Assembly: GCF_013415845.1 (NCBI RefSeq)
Contig: NZ_CP058907.1
Location: forward strand, 4,030,001-4,094,000
Direction: 5' to 3'
DNA from: Rhodopseudomonas palustris
GTDB lineage: Bacteria; Pseudomonadota; Alphaproteobacteria; Rhizobiales; Xanthobacteraceae
Length of the DNA: 64,000 bases
Under the pieces are notes generated by a model. The model saw only the letters and a list, made by a program, of their open reading frames with translations. It ran no database searches and was not told where the DNA came from. Shown here piece by piece: positions 5,404 to 62,957 of this stretch; positions within the stretch are counted from its first letter, which is position 1; the number at the start of each line of letters is the position of its first letter. Position numbers and translations under genes: made by a program.

Positions 5404-5793
5404 CTACGACGCCTTCTTGCCGGACCTGCGCGATGATGATTTCCGGCCTGACGATTTTCGCGCGGTGGATGACTTCGACGACTTACGCCCCGACGAGGCC
5501 TTCGCGCCGATCCGCTTGCTGCTGGACTTGGTGGCCTTCGTGGTCGTCTTCTTCGTCGTCTTGCGGCCGGACTTCGATGCTTTCTTGGCGGAGGTCTTCG
5601 ACGCCTTCTTGCCGGTCTTCTTCTTTGGCGCCTTCGCCCCTTCGGCGCGGGCTTCCGACAGACCAATCGCGATCGCCTGTTTGCGGCTCTTGACCTTCTT
5701 ACCCGAGCCGCCGCTCTTCAGCGTCCCGGCCTTGCGCTTCTTCATCGCGCGGCCGACCTTGGCGGACGCTTTCTTGGAATATTTCCGGGCCAT
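5404..5793 (-). CDS. DUF6496-type, lysine-rich histone-like protein
   Basis: The 129-residue product is strongly basic. The N-terminal part, MARKYSKKASAKVGRAMKKR and KKVKSRKQAIAIGLSEAR (to about residue 50), is the conserved core of the DUF6496 family. From about residue 55 to the end it consists almost entirely of K, A, S, T and R, like histone H1 tails. A DNA-binding or chromatin-organising role is inferred from composition, not shown. The start has a strong GGAGGAG ribosome binding site. It converges on ku, separated only by a repeat, so it may belong to the same DNA-protection neighbourhood. Confidence 0.7.
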   Translation of the reverse strand: MARKYSKKASAKVGRAMKKRKAGTLKSGGSGKKVKSRKQAIAIGLSEARAEGAKAPKKKTGKKASKTSAKKASKSGRKTTKKTTTKATKSSSKRIGAKASSGRKSSKSSTARKSSGRKSSSRRSGKKAS

Positions 5794-5856
5794 GATCTCC
5801 TCCCTATGGAACGATGATCAATGATGCCGATCCCCGATGGTTCCTTGGCGGAGCTA

Positions 5857-6114
5857 TCAGTCCCGCTCGCCGTCCACGGCCGGTGCGCTCGCGAGCTTTT
5901 CGATAACGAACACGATCACCTCGTCGCTGCGTTCACTCGAGATGATACGATCGCCGGTCTCGCCGATCAGCACTGGAATATCGATCAGCGCCATCGGATC
6001 GGTGCAGCGGACTTCCAACAGATCGCCGGCCTGCAGACGCGGCAGTGCCTTGCGGGTCTTCAGCACCGGCAGCGGGCATTTCAGCCCGGTGAGATCGAGA
6101 ACGGTCTTGGCCAT
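5857..6114 (-). CDS. TusA-family sulfur carrier protein
   Basis: TusA-like proteins carry sulfur as a persulfide on a conserved cysteine and supply it for tRNA thiolation, molybdenum cofactor or other sulfur chemistry. The 85-residue product has the hallmark motif GLKCPLPVLKTRKAL near residues 10-24, with the reactive cysteine in CPxP. The small alpha/beta fold length also fits. The gene is divergent from mobA, which is consistent with a link to molybdenum cofactor metabolism, but that link is inferred. Confidence 0.85.
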   Translation of the reverse strand: MAKTVLDLTGLKCPLPVLKTRKALPRLQAGDLLEVRCTDPMALIDIPVLIGETGDRIISSERSDEVIVFVIEKLASAPAVDGERD

Positions 6115-17869: not shown

Positions 17870-18012
17870 CCCTCGCCCCGCTGTTGCGGGGAGAGGGTTG
17901 GGGTGAGGGGCGACGCGGGTCGCAGGCTCTCGGCTCTGCGGAAGCGCCCCCTTACCCGATCGGCATCGCTGCGCGACGCCGATCGACCTCTCCCCGCGCG
18001 CGGGGAGAGGTG
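17870..18012. repeat. Inverted repeat pair, GGGGAGAGGG-TGGGGTGAGGGG family, between urtE and ureD
   Basis: One arm holds GCGGGGAGAGGGTTGGGGTG followed by AGGGG. The opposing arm holds GACCTCTCCCCGCGCGCGG followed by GGAGAGG. The same family bounds the DUF559 unit at 58616-59053 and forms a paired unit at 21121-21232. Here about 70 bp without a gene lie between the arms. Confidence 0.75.
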
Positions 18013-20933: not shown

Positions 20934-21042
20934 AGGAGCCCCCGGATCGGCGCTTCGCGCCGTCCGAGGACAGGCTCCGCGACGAAGCAATCCAGAGTCC
21001 AGTGCACGAAGCTCTGGATTGCTTCGCTTCGCTCGCAATGAC
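20934..21042. repeat. Palindromic repeat, GTCATTGCGAG family, between urtB and urtC
   Basis: It starts GTCATTGCGAGGAGC, contains GACGAAGCAATCCAGAG and its inverse CTCTGGATTGCTTCG, and ends CTCGCAATGACG. Relative to other copies the left arm carries an extra inner segment with CGGCGCTTCGCGCCG. With the next repeat it accounts for the gene-free stretch 20911-21268. Confidence 0.8.
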
Positions 21043-21120
21043 GTGGCTGATGCCGTGCGTGTCGCCGCGTTGCGGCGTGTGTCGAACCATGAGCCTGCAA
21101 GTGACGAGCGAGCACGACCA

Positions 21121-21232
21121 ACTCCCCTCCCCCTTGCGGGGAGGGGTCGGGGGTGGGGGTCCACAAGGGCTAAGCTTGTGGCAGGCCCCCTCACCCCAGC
21201 CCTCTCCCGCAGGCGGGAGAGGGAGTTCGGCT
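21121..21232. repeat. Inverted repeat pair, GGGGAGGGG / CCCTCTCCC family
   Basis: The left arm is CCCCTCCCCCTTGCGGGGAG followed by GGGTCGGGGGTGGGGG. The right arm is CCCCCTCACCCCAGCCCTCT followed by CCCGCAGGCGGGAGAGGG. They point toward each other with about 25 bp between them, so the two arms form a compact unit of the same kind as the ends of the DUF559 element at 58616-59053. Confidence 0.78.
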
Positions 21233-57282: not shown

Positions 57283-57607
57283 CTACATAACCTAGTGCGC
57301 TACCGAGGCGGGCGCAAAGGTATTGGGCTAGGCAATTCGACGATCATCTGCCCCTTTCTCTGGCAGTGGGCAGAATGACCACCTGCTTGGGAAGATGTGG
57401 CTGATCTGGTCCCGCCAAGATCGCCACGCTGCACACAACCATCTGACGGATCGATCTATTTTCAAAGAAGGCGCGGCATCCGCCTTGCCCACCCCCGGAC
57501 AGGCTGCAACCCCACCCAACGTGAAAAACGGACTATTTTGGGCAACTTCCCAAACTGATATCGCCCAAAGTGGGCTGGCCGCGGAAAGCAGTTCGGCCTA
57601 ATTTAAC

Positions 57608-57668
57608 GCGGTTCGTGGAGGTTCCTGGCCGTTGGGCAGCCGCACGTGCCTGTGGATGCCCGAACCGC
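57608..57668 (+). ncRNA. Structured leader candidate before metF
   Basis: A perfect 8-bp closing stem, GCGGTTCG (57608-57615) and CGAACCGC (57661-57668), encloses 45 bases that contain a further possible pairing of GGGCA with TGCC. It ends 24 bases before the metF start. This closed, multi-branched design is what a riboswitch or attenuator would show, and metF is often SAM-controlled. It does not match SAM-I, SAM-II or SAH riboswitch consensus as I recall them. Nothing else stands out in the gap 57283-57692. Confidence 0.4.
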
Positions 57669-57692
57669 CCTTTCAAACTGGATGACGATCAG

Positions 57693-58580
57693 ATGAGCGA
57701 CCTGCCGCAGCAGCTTCCGGCGATTTCCTTCGAGTTCTTCCCGCCGAAGACCGAGGAGATGGAGCGCAATTTGTGGCAGGCGATCAGCCGGCTGGCGCCG
57801 CTGCATCCAAGCTTCGTCTCCGTCACCTATGGGGCTGGCGGCTCCACCCGGGAGCGGACCCACGCCACCATCGCGCGCATCCTGAAAGAAACCGATCTGA
57901 CGCCGGCGGCGCATCTGACCTGCGTCGACGCCCCCTGTGCCGACGTCGACGATGTCGTCGCGCGGTATCACGACATCGGCGTCCGCCACATCGTGGCGCT
58001 GCGCGGGGATCCGACCACCGGCCTCGGCGGCACCTACACGCCGCATCCGCAGGGCTATCGCAGCTCGGCCGATCTCGTCGCCTCGATCAAGCGCCGCTAC
58101 CCGGACATCGACGTCACGGTGTCGGCCTATCCGGAGAAGCATCCGGAGAGCACCGGTTTCGACGCCGACCTCGATATCCTGAAGGCCAAGGTCGATGCCG
58201 GCGCGACCCGCGCGATTACCCAATTCTTCTTCGATAACGACCTGTACTTCCGCTACCTCGACCGCGTCCGCGCTCGCGGCATCAATATCCCGATCGTGCC
58301 GGGTATCCTGCCGGTGCAGAACTTCAAGCAGGCCGCAGGCTTCGCCGCCCGCGCCGGCGCCAGCGTGCCGGACTGGCTAGCCAAGCAGTTCGAAGGGCTC
58401 GACGACGATCCCGACACCCGCAAGCTGGTCGCCGCCACCGTCGCGGCCGGCCAGGTGCATAAGCTCGCCAAGCACGGCGTCAGCAACTTCCACTTCTACA
58501 CCATGAATCGCGCGGACCTGGCGTTCGCCATCAGCCATCTGCTGGGCTTCCGGCCGCAGGCGGCAAGGCAAGCCGCGTGA
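57693..58580 (+). CDS. metF: 5,10-methylenetetrahydrofolate reductase MetF
   Basis: MetF makes the 5-methyl-tetrahydrofolate used by MetH. The 295-residue TIM barrel has ISFEFFPPKTEEMERNLW at the start, VTYGAGGSTRERT, LRGDPTTGLGGTYTPH, and ATRAITQFFFDNDLYFRYLD, all conserved. The ATG at 57693 gives the family N-terminus; the longer frame would run through the leader structure. It is directly upstream of metH except for the inserted DUF559 unit. Confidence 0.96.
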   Translation: MSDLPQQLPAISFEFFPPKTEEMERNLWQAISRLAPLHPSFVSVTYGAGGSTRERTHATIARILKETDLTPAAHLTCVDAPCADVDDVVARYHDIGVRHIVALRGDPTTGLGGTYTPHPQGYRSSADLVASIKRRYPDIDVTVSAYPEKHPESTGFDADLDILKAKVDAGATRAITQFFFDNDLYFRYLDRVRARGINIPIVPGILPVQNFKQAAGFAARAGASVPDWLAKQFEGLDDDPDTRKLVAATVAAGQVHKLAKHGVSNFHFYTMNRADLAFAISHLLGFRPQAARQAA

Positions 58581-58615
58581 ACTTGCAACCAGATTCTCCC
58601 CGCGCAGGGCGCGCT

Positions 58616-59053
58616 CCCTCTCCCCGTCGGGGAGAGGGCTGGGGTGAGGGGCGCCGGCGCCGATGGTCATCCGCACCACGCGTACACCGATCGCCAGGCG
58701 CCTGCGGGCTCAGCCGACGCAGGCCGAAACGTTGCTGTGGCGCCGTCTCCGCAATCGCCAGCTCGATGGATGGAAGTTCAAGCGGCAATTTCCGATCGAC
58801 CGATTTGTCGTCGACTTCTGCTGCACCGAAGCGCGGCTCGTCGTCGAACTCGACGGCGGACAACATGAACAACAGACCGAGCAAGATACGGCGCGGACGG
58901 AGGTGCTCTCCGCGATGGGCTATCTGGTCGTTCGGTTCTGGAACAACGATGTGCTGTCGAATCCCGACGGCGTGCTCGAAACGATTGCCCGAACGATCAG
59001 ACCGCATGCGTTCGATCCCCCTCACCCCAGCCCTCTCCCCGACGGGGAGAGGG
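58616..59053 (+). mobile_element. DUF559 unit with perfect 36-bp terminal inverted repeats
   Basis: The left end (58616-58651) begins CCCTCTCCCCGTCGGGGAGA and ends GGGGTGAGGGG. The right end (59018-59053) is its exact reverse complement over all 36 bp. Each end is itself a small hairpin, CTCTCCCCGTCGGGGAGAG. Between them is a single gene for a DUF559 nuclease-like protein. Paired units of the same family without the gene lie at 17870-18012 and 21121-21232. I could not find a clear target duplication; the sequence just outside the ends (GCGCGCT and AGCCGCGC) is nearly inverted too. Confidence 0.7.
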
Positions 59054-59064
59054 AGCCGCGCTGA
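58663..59064 (+). CDS. DUF559 endonuclease-like protein
   Basis: The 133-residue protein has the DUF559 / very-short-patch-repair-like fold: [53 protein letters not shown] and [20 protein letters not shown]. The acidic residues in FVVDF and VVELDGGQH match the nuclease metal site of PD-(D/E)XK enzymes. GAGGGG of the left repeat serves as ribosome binding site. The last 16 residues ([13 protein letters not shown] and on) are encoded by the right repeat. The stop is 11 bases before the metH start. The substrate is unknown. Confidence 0.85.
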
Positions 59065-59075
59065 GTAGTTTGCAG

Positions 59076-62957
<3,882 letters not shown>

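Follow-up and report, generated by a model that had tools for sequence, protein, structure and literature searches.

Positions 4,030,001 to 4,094,000 of the Rhodopseudomonas palustris contig NZ_CP058907.1 (assembly GCF_013415845.1), a stretch of 64,000 nt that we call the window, contain between metF and metH a small gene of the DUF559 family (PF04480) enclosed by two matched inverted repeats, or arms. Our data come close to showing that, across many bacteria, such a gene and its arms act as a single unit. The arms are copies of the PIT/TM intrastrand-triplex motif known from the literature (TM, triplex motif), and the results suggest that the PIT/TM family consists of gene-less descendants of a mobile nuclease element. 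The reading that we consider probable is a repeat-ended element similar to repetitive extragenic palindromic (REP) sequences and their REP-associated tyrosine transposases (RAYTs). In this reading a nuclease of the Vsr/EDxHD fold would act on hairpin/triplex ends, and PIT/TM pairs would be its non-autonomous derivatives. The first-pass annotation of the window had proposed an element of REP/RAYT-like logic with non-autonomous derivatives and another nuclease family; the association and the matched arms found elsewhere support that proposal.

Structure of the unit and identity of its repeats

The arms (58613-58651, plus strand; 59018-59056, minus strand) are perfect inverted repeats, complementary at 39 of 39 nt and located 366 nt apart. 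The exactness of the repeats and the hairpin at each end had been described correctly in the first pass; the length had been given as 36 bp and is really 39 nt. Each arm consists of a C/T-G/A hairpin (58616-58638 and 59031-59053) and a G-rich tail directed toward the gene. The left hairpin reads CCCTCTCCCC-GTC-GGGGAGAGGG and is followed by the tail GGGGTGAGGGG; the right arm is the exact reverse complement of the left. The gene itself (58663-59064, plus strand) encodes 133 aa. By inspection, the sequence GGTGAGGGG of the left arm ends 11 nt upstream of the ATG and could be the ribosome binding site of the gene. The 3′ end of the gene (59017-59064, plus strand) lies mostly in the right arm, as had been noted, though this arm codes for approximately the last 15 residues, with the final two mostly outside it, and not for the last 16.

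By inspection, the window arms fit the consensus of the Escherichia coli triplex motif, CCCTCNCCCN3-6GGGNGAGGGN3GGGNGAGGG (Holder et al. 2015, PMC4666352). In the window genome (G000, 5.32 Mb) we found 50 matches to the 3′ part of this consensus versus 2 for a control pattern. PIT/TM repeats are described there for E. coli and >260 bacterial genomes, no origin is given for them, and the authors, who looked for an association of the motif with transposons, phages or plasmids, report none (PMC4666352). No word in the text of PMC4666352 begins with ‘DUF’ or ‘nuclease’, and a search of the open-access literature (mostly titles and opening lines) found no link between DUF559 and PIT/TM repeats.

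Genes and arms within Rhodopseudomonas

The genus set comprised G000 and 15 other Rhodopseudomonas genomes. Out of 88 DUF559 matches in these 16 genomes 77 were taken, 58 scoring above 110 bits and 19 below; the others, two located at the edge of a contig and nine absent from the listing, were omitted. Flanking inverted repeats with a score of at least 20 were detected at 57 of the 58 high-scoring loci, L074 being the sole locus without them (a 117-nt repeat in L057, located at the end of a contig, may be an assembly effect). None of the 19 low-scoring loci reached a score of 14, the top score being 12. Fifteen of them form one group with common flanks and open frames of at least 400 codons; this group serves as a control within the family. 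At L051 (G008) the DUF559 frame is broken by a shift or stop and the repeats still flank it.

Seven or more arm types (A to G) can be distinguished in the genus. Arm type tracks gene subfamily, not genome. Mean arm similarity was 0.85 for the same subfamily across different genomes (172 pairs), versus 0.47 for different subfamilies within one genome (88 pairs) and 0.49 for different subfamilies across different genomes (1332 pairs). Protein similarity and arm similarity were correlated (0.56), a value reached in none of 2000 permutations, including permutation of arms within genomes. Random decay of the repeats, which the first-pass annotation had envisaged as an outcome speaking against a mobile unit, was not what we saw: the arms stay matched within each locus.

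Judged by common flanks, the high-scoring genes occupy about ten sites. At one conserved site, C-type units adjoin single E-type arms (L157 in G003, G008:C52 and G013:C22), and the same neighbourhood in other species holds an E-type DUF559 unit; apparently one element took the place of another there or inserted into it.

Association in other bacteria

A scan of GTDB with one peptide pattern yielded 585 confirmed stretches, of which the best 80, not a random sample, were analysed; they come mostly from records titled Alpha-, Beta- or Gammaproteobacteria. A repeat score of at least 14 was reached at 59 of these 80 loci versus 2 of 153 shifted segments of the same geometry and 5 of 80 loci with swapped flanks. 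With a threshold of 18 the corresponding counts were 46/80, 0/153 and 5/80. In 39 of the 59 loci having an inverted repeat the DUF559 frame reaches or passes the start of the right arm. A second sample, drawn from 160 Pseudomonadota genomes, had inverted repeats at 15 of 29 DUF559 loci versus 0 of 58 controls; a thirtieth locus, L001, was not counted. Family and order relatives outside the genus (L016-L044) reached a score of 14 at 11 of 14 loci. The association of DUF559 genes with the repeat, which the first pass had suggested looking for in other genomes, is thus present in the genus and in both wider samples. Of the 11 loci of the GTDB sample whose titles place them outside Pseudomonadota as now defined, 4 scored at least 14 (two Rokuibacteriota, one Nitrospirae and one Desulfobacterales); the seven below 14 were from Nitrospinota, Desulfobacca, Syntrophaceae, Deltaproteobacteria, Methylomirabilis, Elusimicrobia and one Nitrospirae.

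The repeats were also counted genome by genome, with TM excess defined as at least four more matches than the control pattern and DUF559 presence as a match with E 1e-20 or better. TM excess was found in 19 of 40 genomes with DUF559 versus 5 of 120 without (Fisher p 1.3e-9; 160 genomes) and, outside the window's own order, in 12 of 25 versus 4 of 112 (p 1.1e-7); these p-values are optimistic because genomes share ancestry. One of the five exceptions, G150, has an interrupted DUF559 frame that still lies between repeats (G150:C4:352938-353403).

Third-strand covariation in the arms

Intrastrand triplex folding was measured for the E. coli motif by others (PMC4666352). We compared the tail of each arm with the purine strand of its stem by a third-strand rule, which requires a tail G on a stem G and a tail A or T on a stem A. 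Of 70 loci, 21 were dropped because hairpin selection yielded none that had an A-containing purine run of at least 7. Among the 49 usable loci, L001 included, the tail fits the stem at every position in 39; in 1000 shuffles of the tails the number of fitting loci averaged 10.05 and peaked at 17. The 10 loci that do not fit include some for which the wrong hairpin was selected (by eye, L002 fits when its proper arm is used). In L216 and L260, whose stems have the purine strand GGGAGAAGG, the mirror tail has A, T and A at the corresponding positions. A second hairpin occurs in some arms, which retain the tail after it (L218), and in four arms (L231, L249, L254 and L269, by eye) the tail is on the outer side. 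Stem and tail covary; therefore the conserved property is the predicted ability of the strand to fold in three. From their sequences, the ends of DUF559 units are predicted to be hairpin-plus-third-strand structures compatible with a triplex. When known RNA families were considered as a source of the repeat, the only match was to a human long non-coding RNA, far below the gathering score.

Gene-less inverted pairs

Two gene-less pairs of the same repeat family had been reported in the window, and both are real. The first (17870-18011) has an A-like arm at 17870-17911 (plus) and an F-like arm at 17984-18011 (minus); the second (21122-21225) has a C-type arm at 21122-21160 (plus) and a B-type arm at 21188-21225 (minus). 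Neither pair has two arms of the window gene's own type.

A survey of 464 kb of G000, made up of the window and 20 segments of 20 kb at even spacing, gave 20 matches to the repeat family with a score of at least 30 bits, versus none when the sequence was reversed. Five gene-less inverted pairs, 28-125 nt apart, were found there, and the only inverted pair under 1 kb with gene-sized space encloses DUF559. All six pairs are arranged plus-then-minus like the gene unit, the strand of a short palindromic match being uncertain. Chance as an explanation of the findings is rejected by the reversed, shifted, swapped and shuffled controls.

In the genus, E-type arms number 0-69 per genome and occur in 14 of 16 genomes, and C-type arms number 4-37 and occur in all 16; the control patterns gave 0 in every genome. 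The 40 E-type matches of G012 resolve into 16 pairs without a gene, one pair that encloses a gene and 6 solitary arms; gene-less pairs and a gene unit have the same ends here. The 16 pairs have a mean identity of 83% (56-99%) over ∼146 nt, non-hairpin core included, a mean lowered by L341 and L342, which were apparently compared in opposite orientation; their 25-nt flanks average 40% identity. In the cases seen, gene-less pairs are ∼85-175 bp long. Clean empty sites for E-type pairs were not obtained, the orthologous intergenic regions being too diverged or having other repeats.

These observations bear on the view that the repeats are ordinary structures, such as bidirectional terminators or self-rearranging triplex-prone DNA, amplified by slippage or recombination, with DUF559 merely situated between them. 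In the literature, 100 such palindromes of Enterobacter sp. 638 are presumed to be terminators (PMC2869309) and the E. coli repeats are treated as instability motifs (PMC4666352); also, some genomes have repeats without DUF559. Such a view is difficult to reconcile with the association with matched arms in two samples, the covariation of arms with the gene, the DUF559 gene inside the sole gene-sized inverted pair of the G000 survey and the dispersal of entire 146-bp pairs whose core outside the hairpins is conserved. We regard it as very improbable.

Several E-type pairs (L333, L334, L345, L347, L349 and L162) seem to lie within a larger composite with the outer inverted sequence GGCGATCGCAT...ATGCGATTGCC (by eye), which would be a mosaic like bacterial interspersed mosaic elements. 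Just 5′ of the C/B pair of the window, at 20986-21044, is a palindromic repeat of the GTCATTGCGAGCG type, which we take to resemble the CGTC-tagged repeats of R. palustris. A similar repeat sits where other species hold an E-type pair. Repeats with the CGTC tag were reported for R. palustris (PMC3733652).

Alleles of the metF-metH junction

The unit in the window lies between metF (57570-58580, plus strand, frame as in the open reading frame listing) and metH (59076-62957, plus strand). A comparison of this junction in relatives, suggested in the first pass, revealed full, internally deleted and empty alleles. The full unit is present in 7 of the 16 genus genomes (gap of 495-496 nt), an internally deleted remnant in two (123 nt in G006 and 166 nt in G002), and the junction is empty in seven (gap of 1-12 nt). 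Outside the genus, G020 also has the unit at metF-metH. The unit is thus polymorphic for presence and absence, and the two remnants are gene-less derivatives in the making. The DNA missing at empty junctions extends beyond the arms by ∼30 nt on the left and ∼20 nt on the right (outer flanks 58581-58612 and 59057-59075); therefore the hairpins may be subterminal, or else the junction was remodelled.

Alleles with and without the unit invite a homing-type explanation, in which the nuclease would cut alleles lacking the unit and recombination would copy gene and repeats in, the arms being protective or terminator sequences and not substrates. Homing needs recognition of an empty site, yet gene-less pairs of the same type occur at many different places, and arm type follows gene subfamily. 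We find this explanation unlikely.

In a distant relative (G047:C68:73017-75250), a DUF559 gene with arms was observed closely 3′ of a match to the N-terminal part of MetH; the open frame of this match has 368 codons only.

DUF559 and TM pairs in Escherichia coli

The ycjD gene (b1289) of E. coli K-12 belongs to PF04480 (167 bits), and its product is 44% identical to the window protein over 114 positions; our control genome set, which included E. coli, gave no E. coli DUF559 match despite this score. The last codons of ycjD run into a decayed arm, and copy 9 in the TM table of Holder et al. is ∼170 nt past the stop codon. Between ycjD and TM copy 9 the ycjD 3′ end occurs again as a partial copy (L289, K-12 1345500-1354500, locus 5540-5910), which looks like the decayed remainder of a tandem unit. 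One longer ycjD variant was seen in E. coli.

The K-12 TM pairs compared, four out of five, share the core and the outer ends (by eye). The TM pairs are polymorphic between E. coli strains. Among 5426 genomes, the hrpB-mrcB junction is empty in 1846 and filled in 3399 (at least 80% coverage; the filled count possibly includes some matches to other pairs). The fepB-entC junction has no pair in ABWA45, and alx-sstT is down to one hairpin in P19_598. A clean ycjD-empty allele was not found: the DNA downstream of sapF is wholly different in three alternative regions, from three strains without ycjD there (L294-L296), which have a pair of genes for an efflux outer-membrane protein and a major facilitator superfamily transporter. 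Another pair site is absent together with the neighbour gene ygfF, and L303 (E. coli p94_0962-1, labelled plasmid) has a TM copy between flgF and flgG.

The DUF559 protein as a predicted nuclease

A profile search placed the window protein in PF04480 at 143.6 bits. It matches the Vsr/EDxHD fold and, more weakly, Holliday junction resolvases; the structure of NGO0050 (PDB 3hrl) matches it both by fold and by sequence (E 7.7e-26). Residues E22, D51, E62, D64, H68 and D75 are invariant in DUF559 alignments of 21 and 41 sequences. They form a conserved candidate active site, from which nuclease activity is predicted. In the repeat-encoded C-terminal tail the predicted structure has low confidence. 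The pattern of this tail, PHPxPLPxGER, is present in 112 of 120 listed homologues, a listing biased toward this pattern because the search query contained the tail. The Rhodopseudomonas subfamilies A to D are under purifying selection, the ratios of nonsynonymous to synonymous substitution rates (dN/dS) being 0.094, 0.128, 0.116 and 0.112, respectively.

The same properties could belong to a domesticated repair nuclease that resolves or edits hairpins or triplexes at stalled forks, the repeats being addiction-like targets and not transposition ends. The Vsr-like fold, the weaker resolvase matches, purifying selection and the shared sites of the genes all favour such a role. So does Caulobacter VsrA: cells that lack a cytosine methyltransferase require it for their DNA damage response (PMC12907096). 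A repair role alone leaves unexplained the matched ends of the gene itself and the unit-wise multiplication of pairs; we think it improbable as the full account.

Proposed mechanism and points against it

We infer that the nuclease binds and cuts the arms and so causes their spread. In the mechanism proposed, two inverted hairpin-plus-third-strand arms surrounding one Vsr/EDxHD-fold nuclease gene would constitute a small element. The nuclease would recognise its own end type and cut it once the strand becomes accessible; the substrate would most likely be a folded single strand formed in replication or repair. Cutting would move or copy the DNA between two such ends. Gene-less PIT/TM pairs would be moved in trans, since recognition is proposed to reside in the ends, and would accumulate as families; the gene would be mostly inherited vertically and maintained by purifying selection. 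A bolder version, which we advance tentatively, is that of a new class of transposable elements: a lone Vsr/EDxHD nuclease would recognise intrastrand-triplex ends and mobilise anything between two of them, and the PIT/TM repeats of E. coli and hundreds of further genomes would be its non-autonomous derivatives. In that case triplex DNA would serve as a natural signal for transposition.

A number of observations weigh against the element that we favour. The loci of DUF559 genes are mostly at sites shared across the genus; therefore mobility of the gene must be rare or old. Mobility as such is our inference, and no target-site duplication was found: none of the 16 G012 copies has a direct repeat of at least 5 nt within 3 nt of the hairpin edges, the true ends being uncertain. 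The outer sequence nearest the hairpins is partly conserved among pairs; therefore the true ends of the element are not fixed. Repeat number does not closely follow the present gene type, and E-type copies are numerous even in genomes that had no E-type gene detected at the site in question (e.g. 31 in G008). At the thresholds used, 21 of 80 and 14 of 29 loci of the two wider samples have no inverted repeat, and support outside Pseudomonadota is thin. By pattern, TM excess is absent from 21 of 40 DUF559-bearing genomes and present in 5 of the 120 that lack a strong DUF559 match; the control pattern is itself frequent in G113, G117, G121 and G197 (36, 148, 65 and 84 matches). Finally, a Caulobacter DUF559 protein has been linked to mismatch repair (PMC12907096).

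A matched nuclease gene gives the PIT/TM repeats an origin, and DUF559, a family of unknown function, gains a probable substrate. If the proposal is true, a lifestyle like that of REP/RAYT systems evolved twice, the other time on the basis of an unrelated nuclease. A cleavage assay could address whether living cells use triplex DNA, and the K-12 relic ycjD makes the idea testable in the best-known bacterium.

Comparison with known systems

PIT/TM repeats have the same sequence as the window arms and form inverted pairs of two types in K-12; for the published motif no link to mobile elements was reported, whereas here it is tied to a nuclease gene. From the EDxHD homing endonuclease I-Bth0305I and from Vsr the DUF559 unit differs in that no intron or intein was seen and the ends of the gene are repeats. 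YcjD, treated as a PD-(D/E)XK member in PMC1189080, shares PF04480 with the window protein; unlike the window gene, ycjD has just a right arm, which is decayed, and past its 3′ end a single complete TM copy.

The closest parallel is to REP/RAYT systems (REPtrons, REPINs). There, the gene lies between two inverted palindromic repeats with gene-less copies dispersed, and orthologous genes keep their place while the arms change together (PMC2817692). DUF559 genes likewise lie between matched inverted ends, have dispersed gene-less copies and keep their positions. The RAYT is an HUH Y1 transposase (PF01797), whereas the DUF559 unit encodes PF04480 of the Vsr/EDxHD fold. PF01797 had no match in G000 and weak ones in 6 of the 16 genus genomes, and a RAYT origin of the repeats in G000 is ruled out on this ground. 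Judging from the window arms by inspection, DUF559 ends are pyrimidine/purine hairpins with a third-strand tail and have no GTAG or CGTC tag. With both the HUH transposase and the tag absent, our claim is that the DUF559 unit works like a RAYT-REP system, not that it is one.
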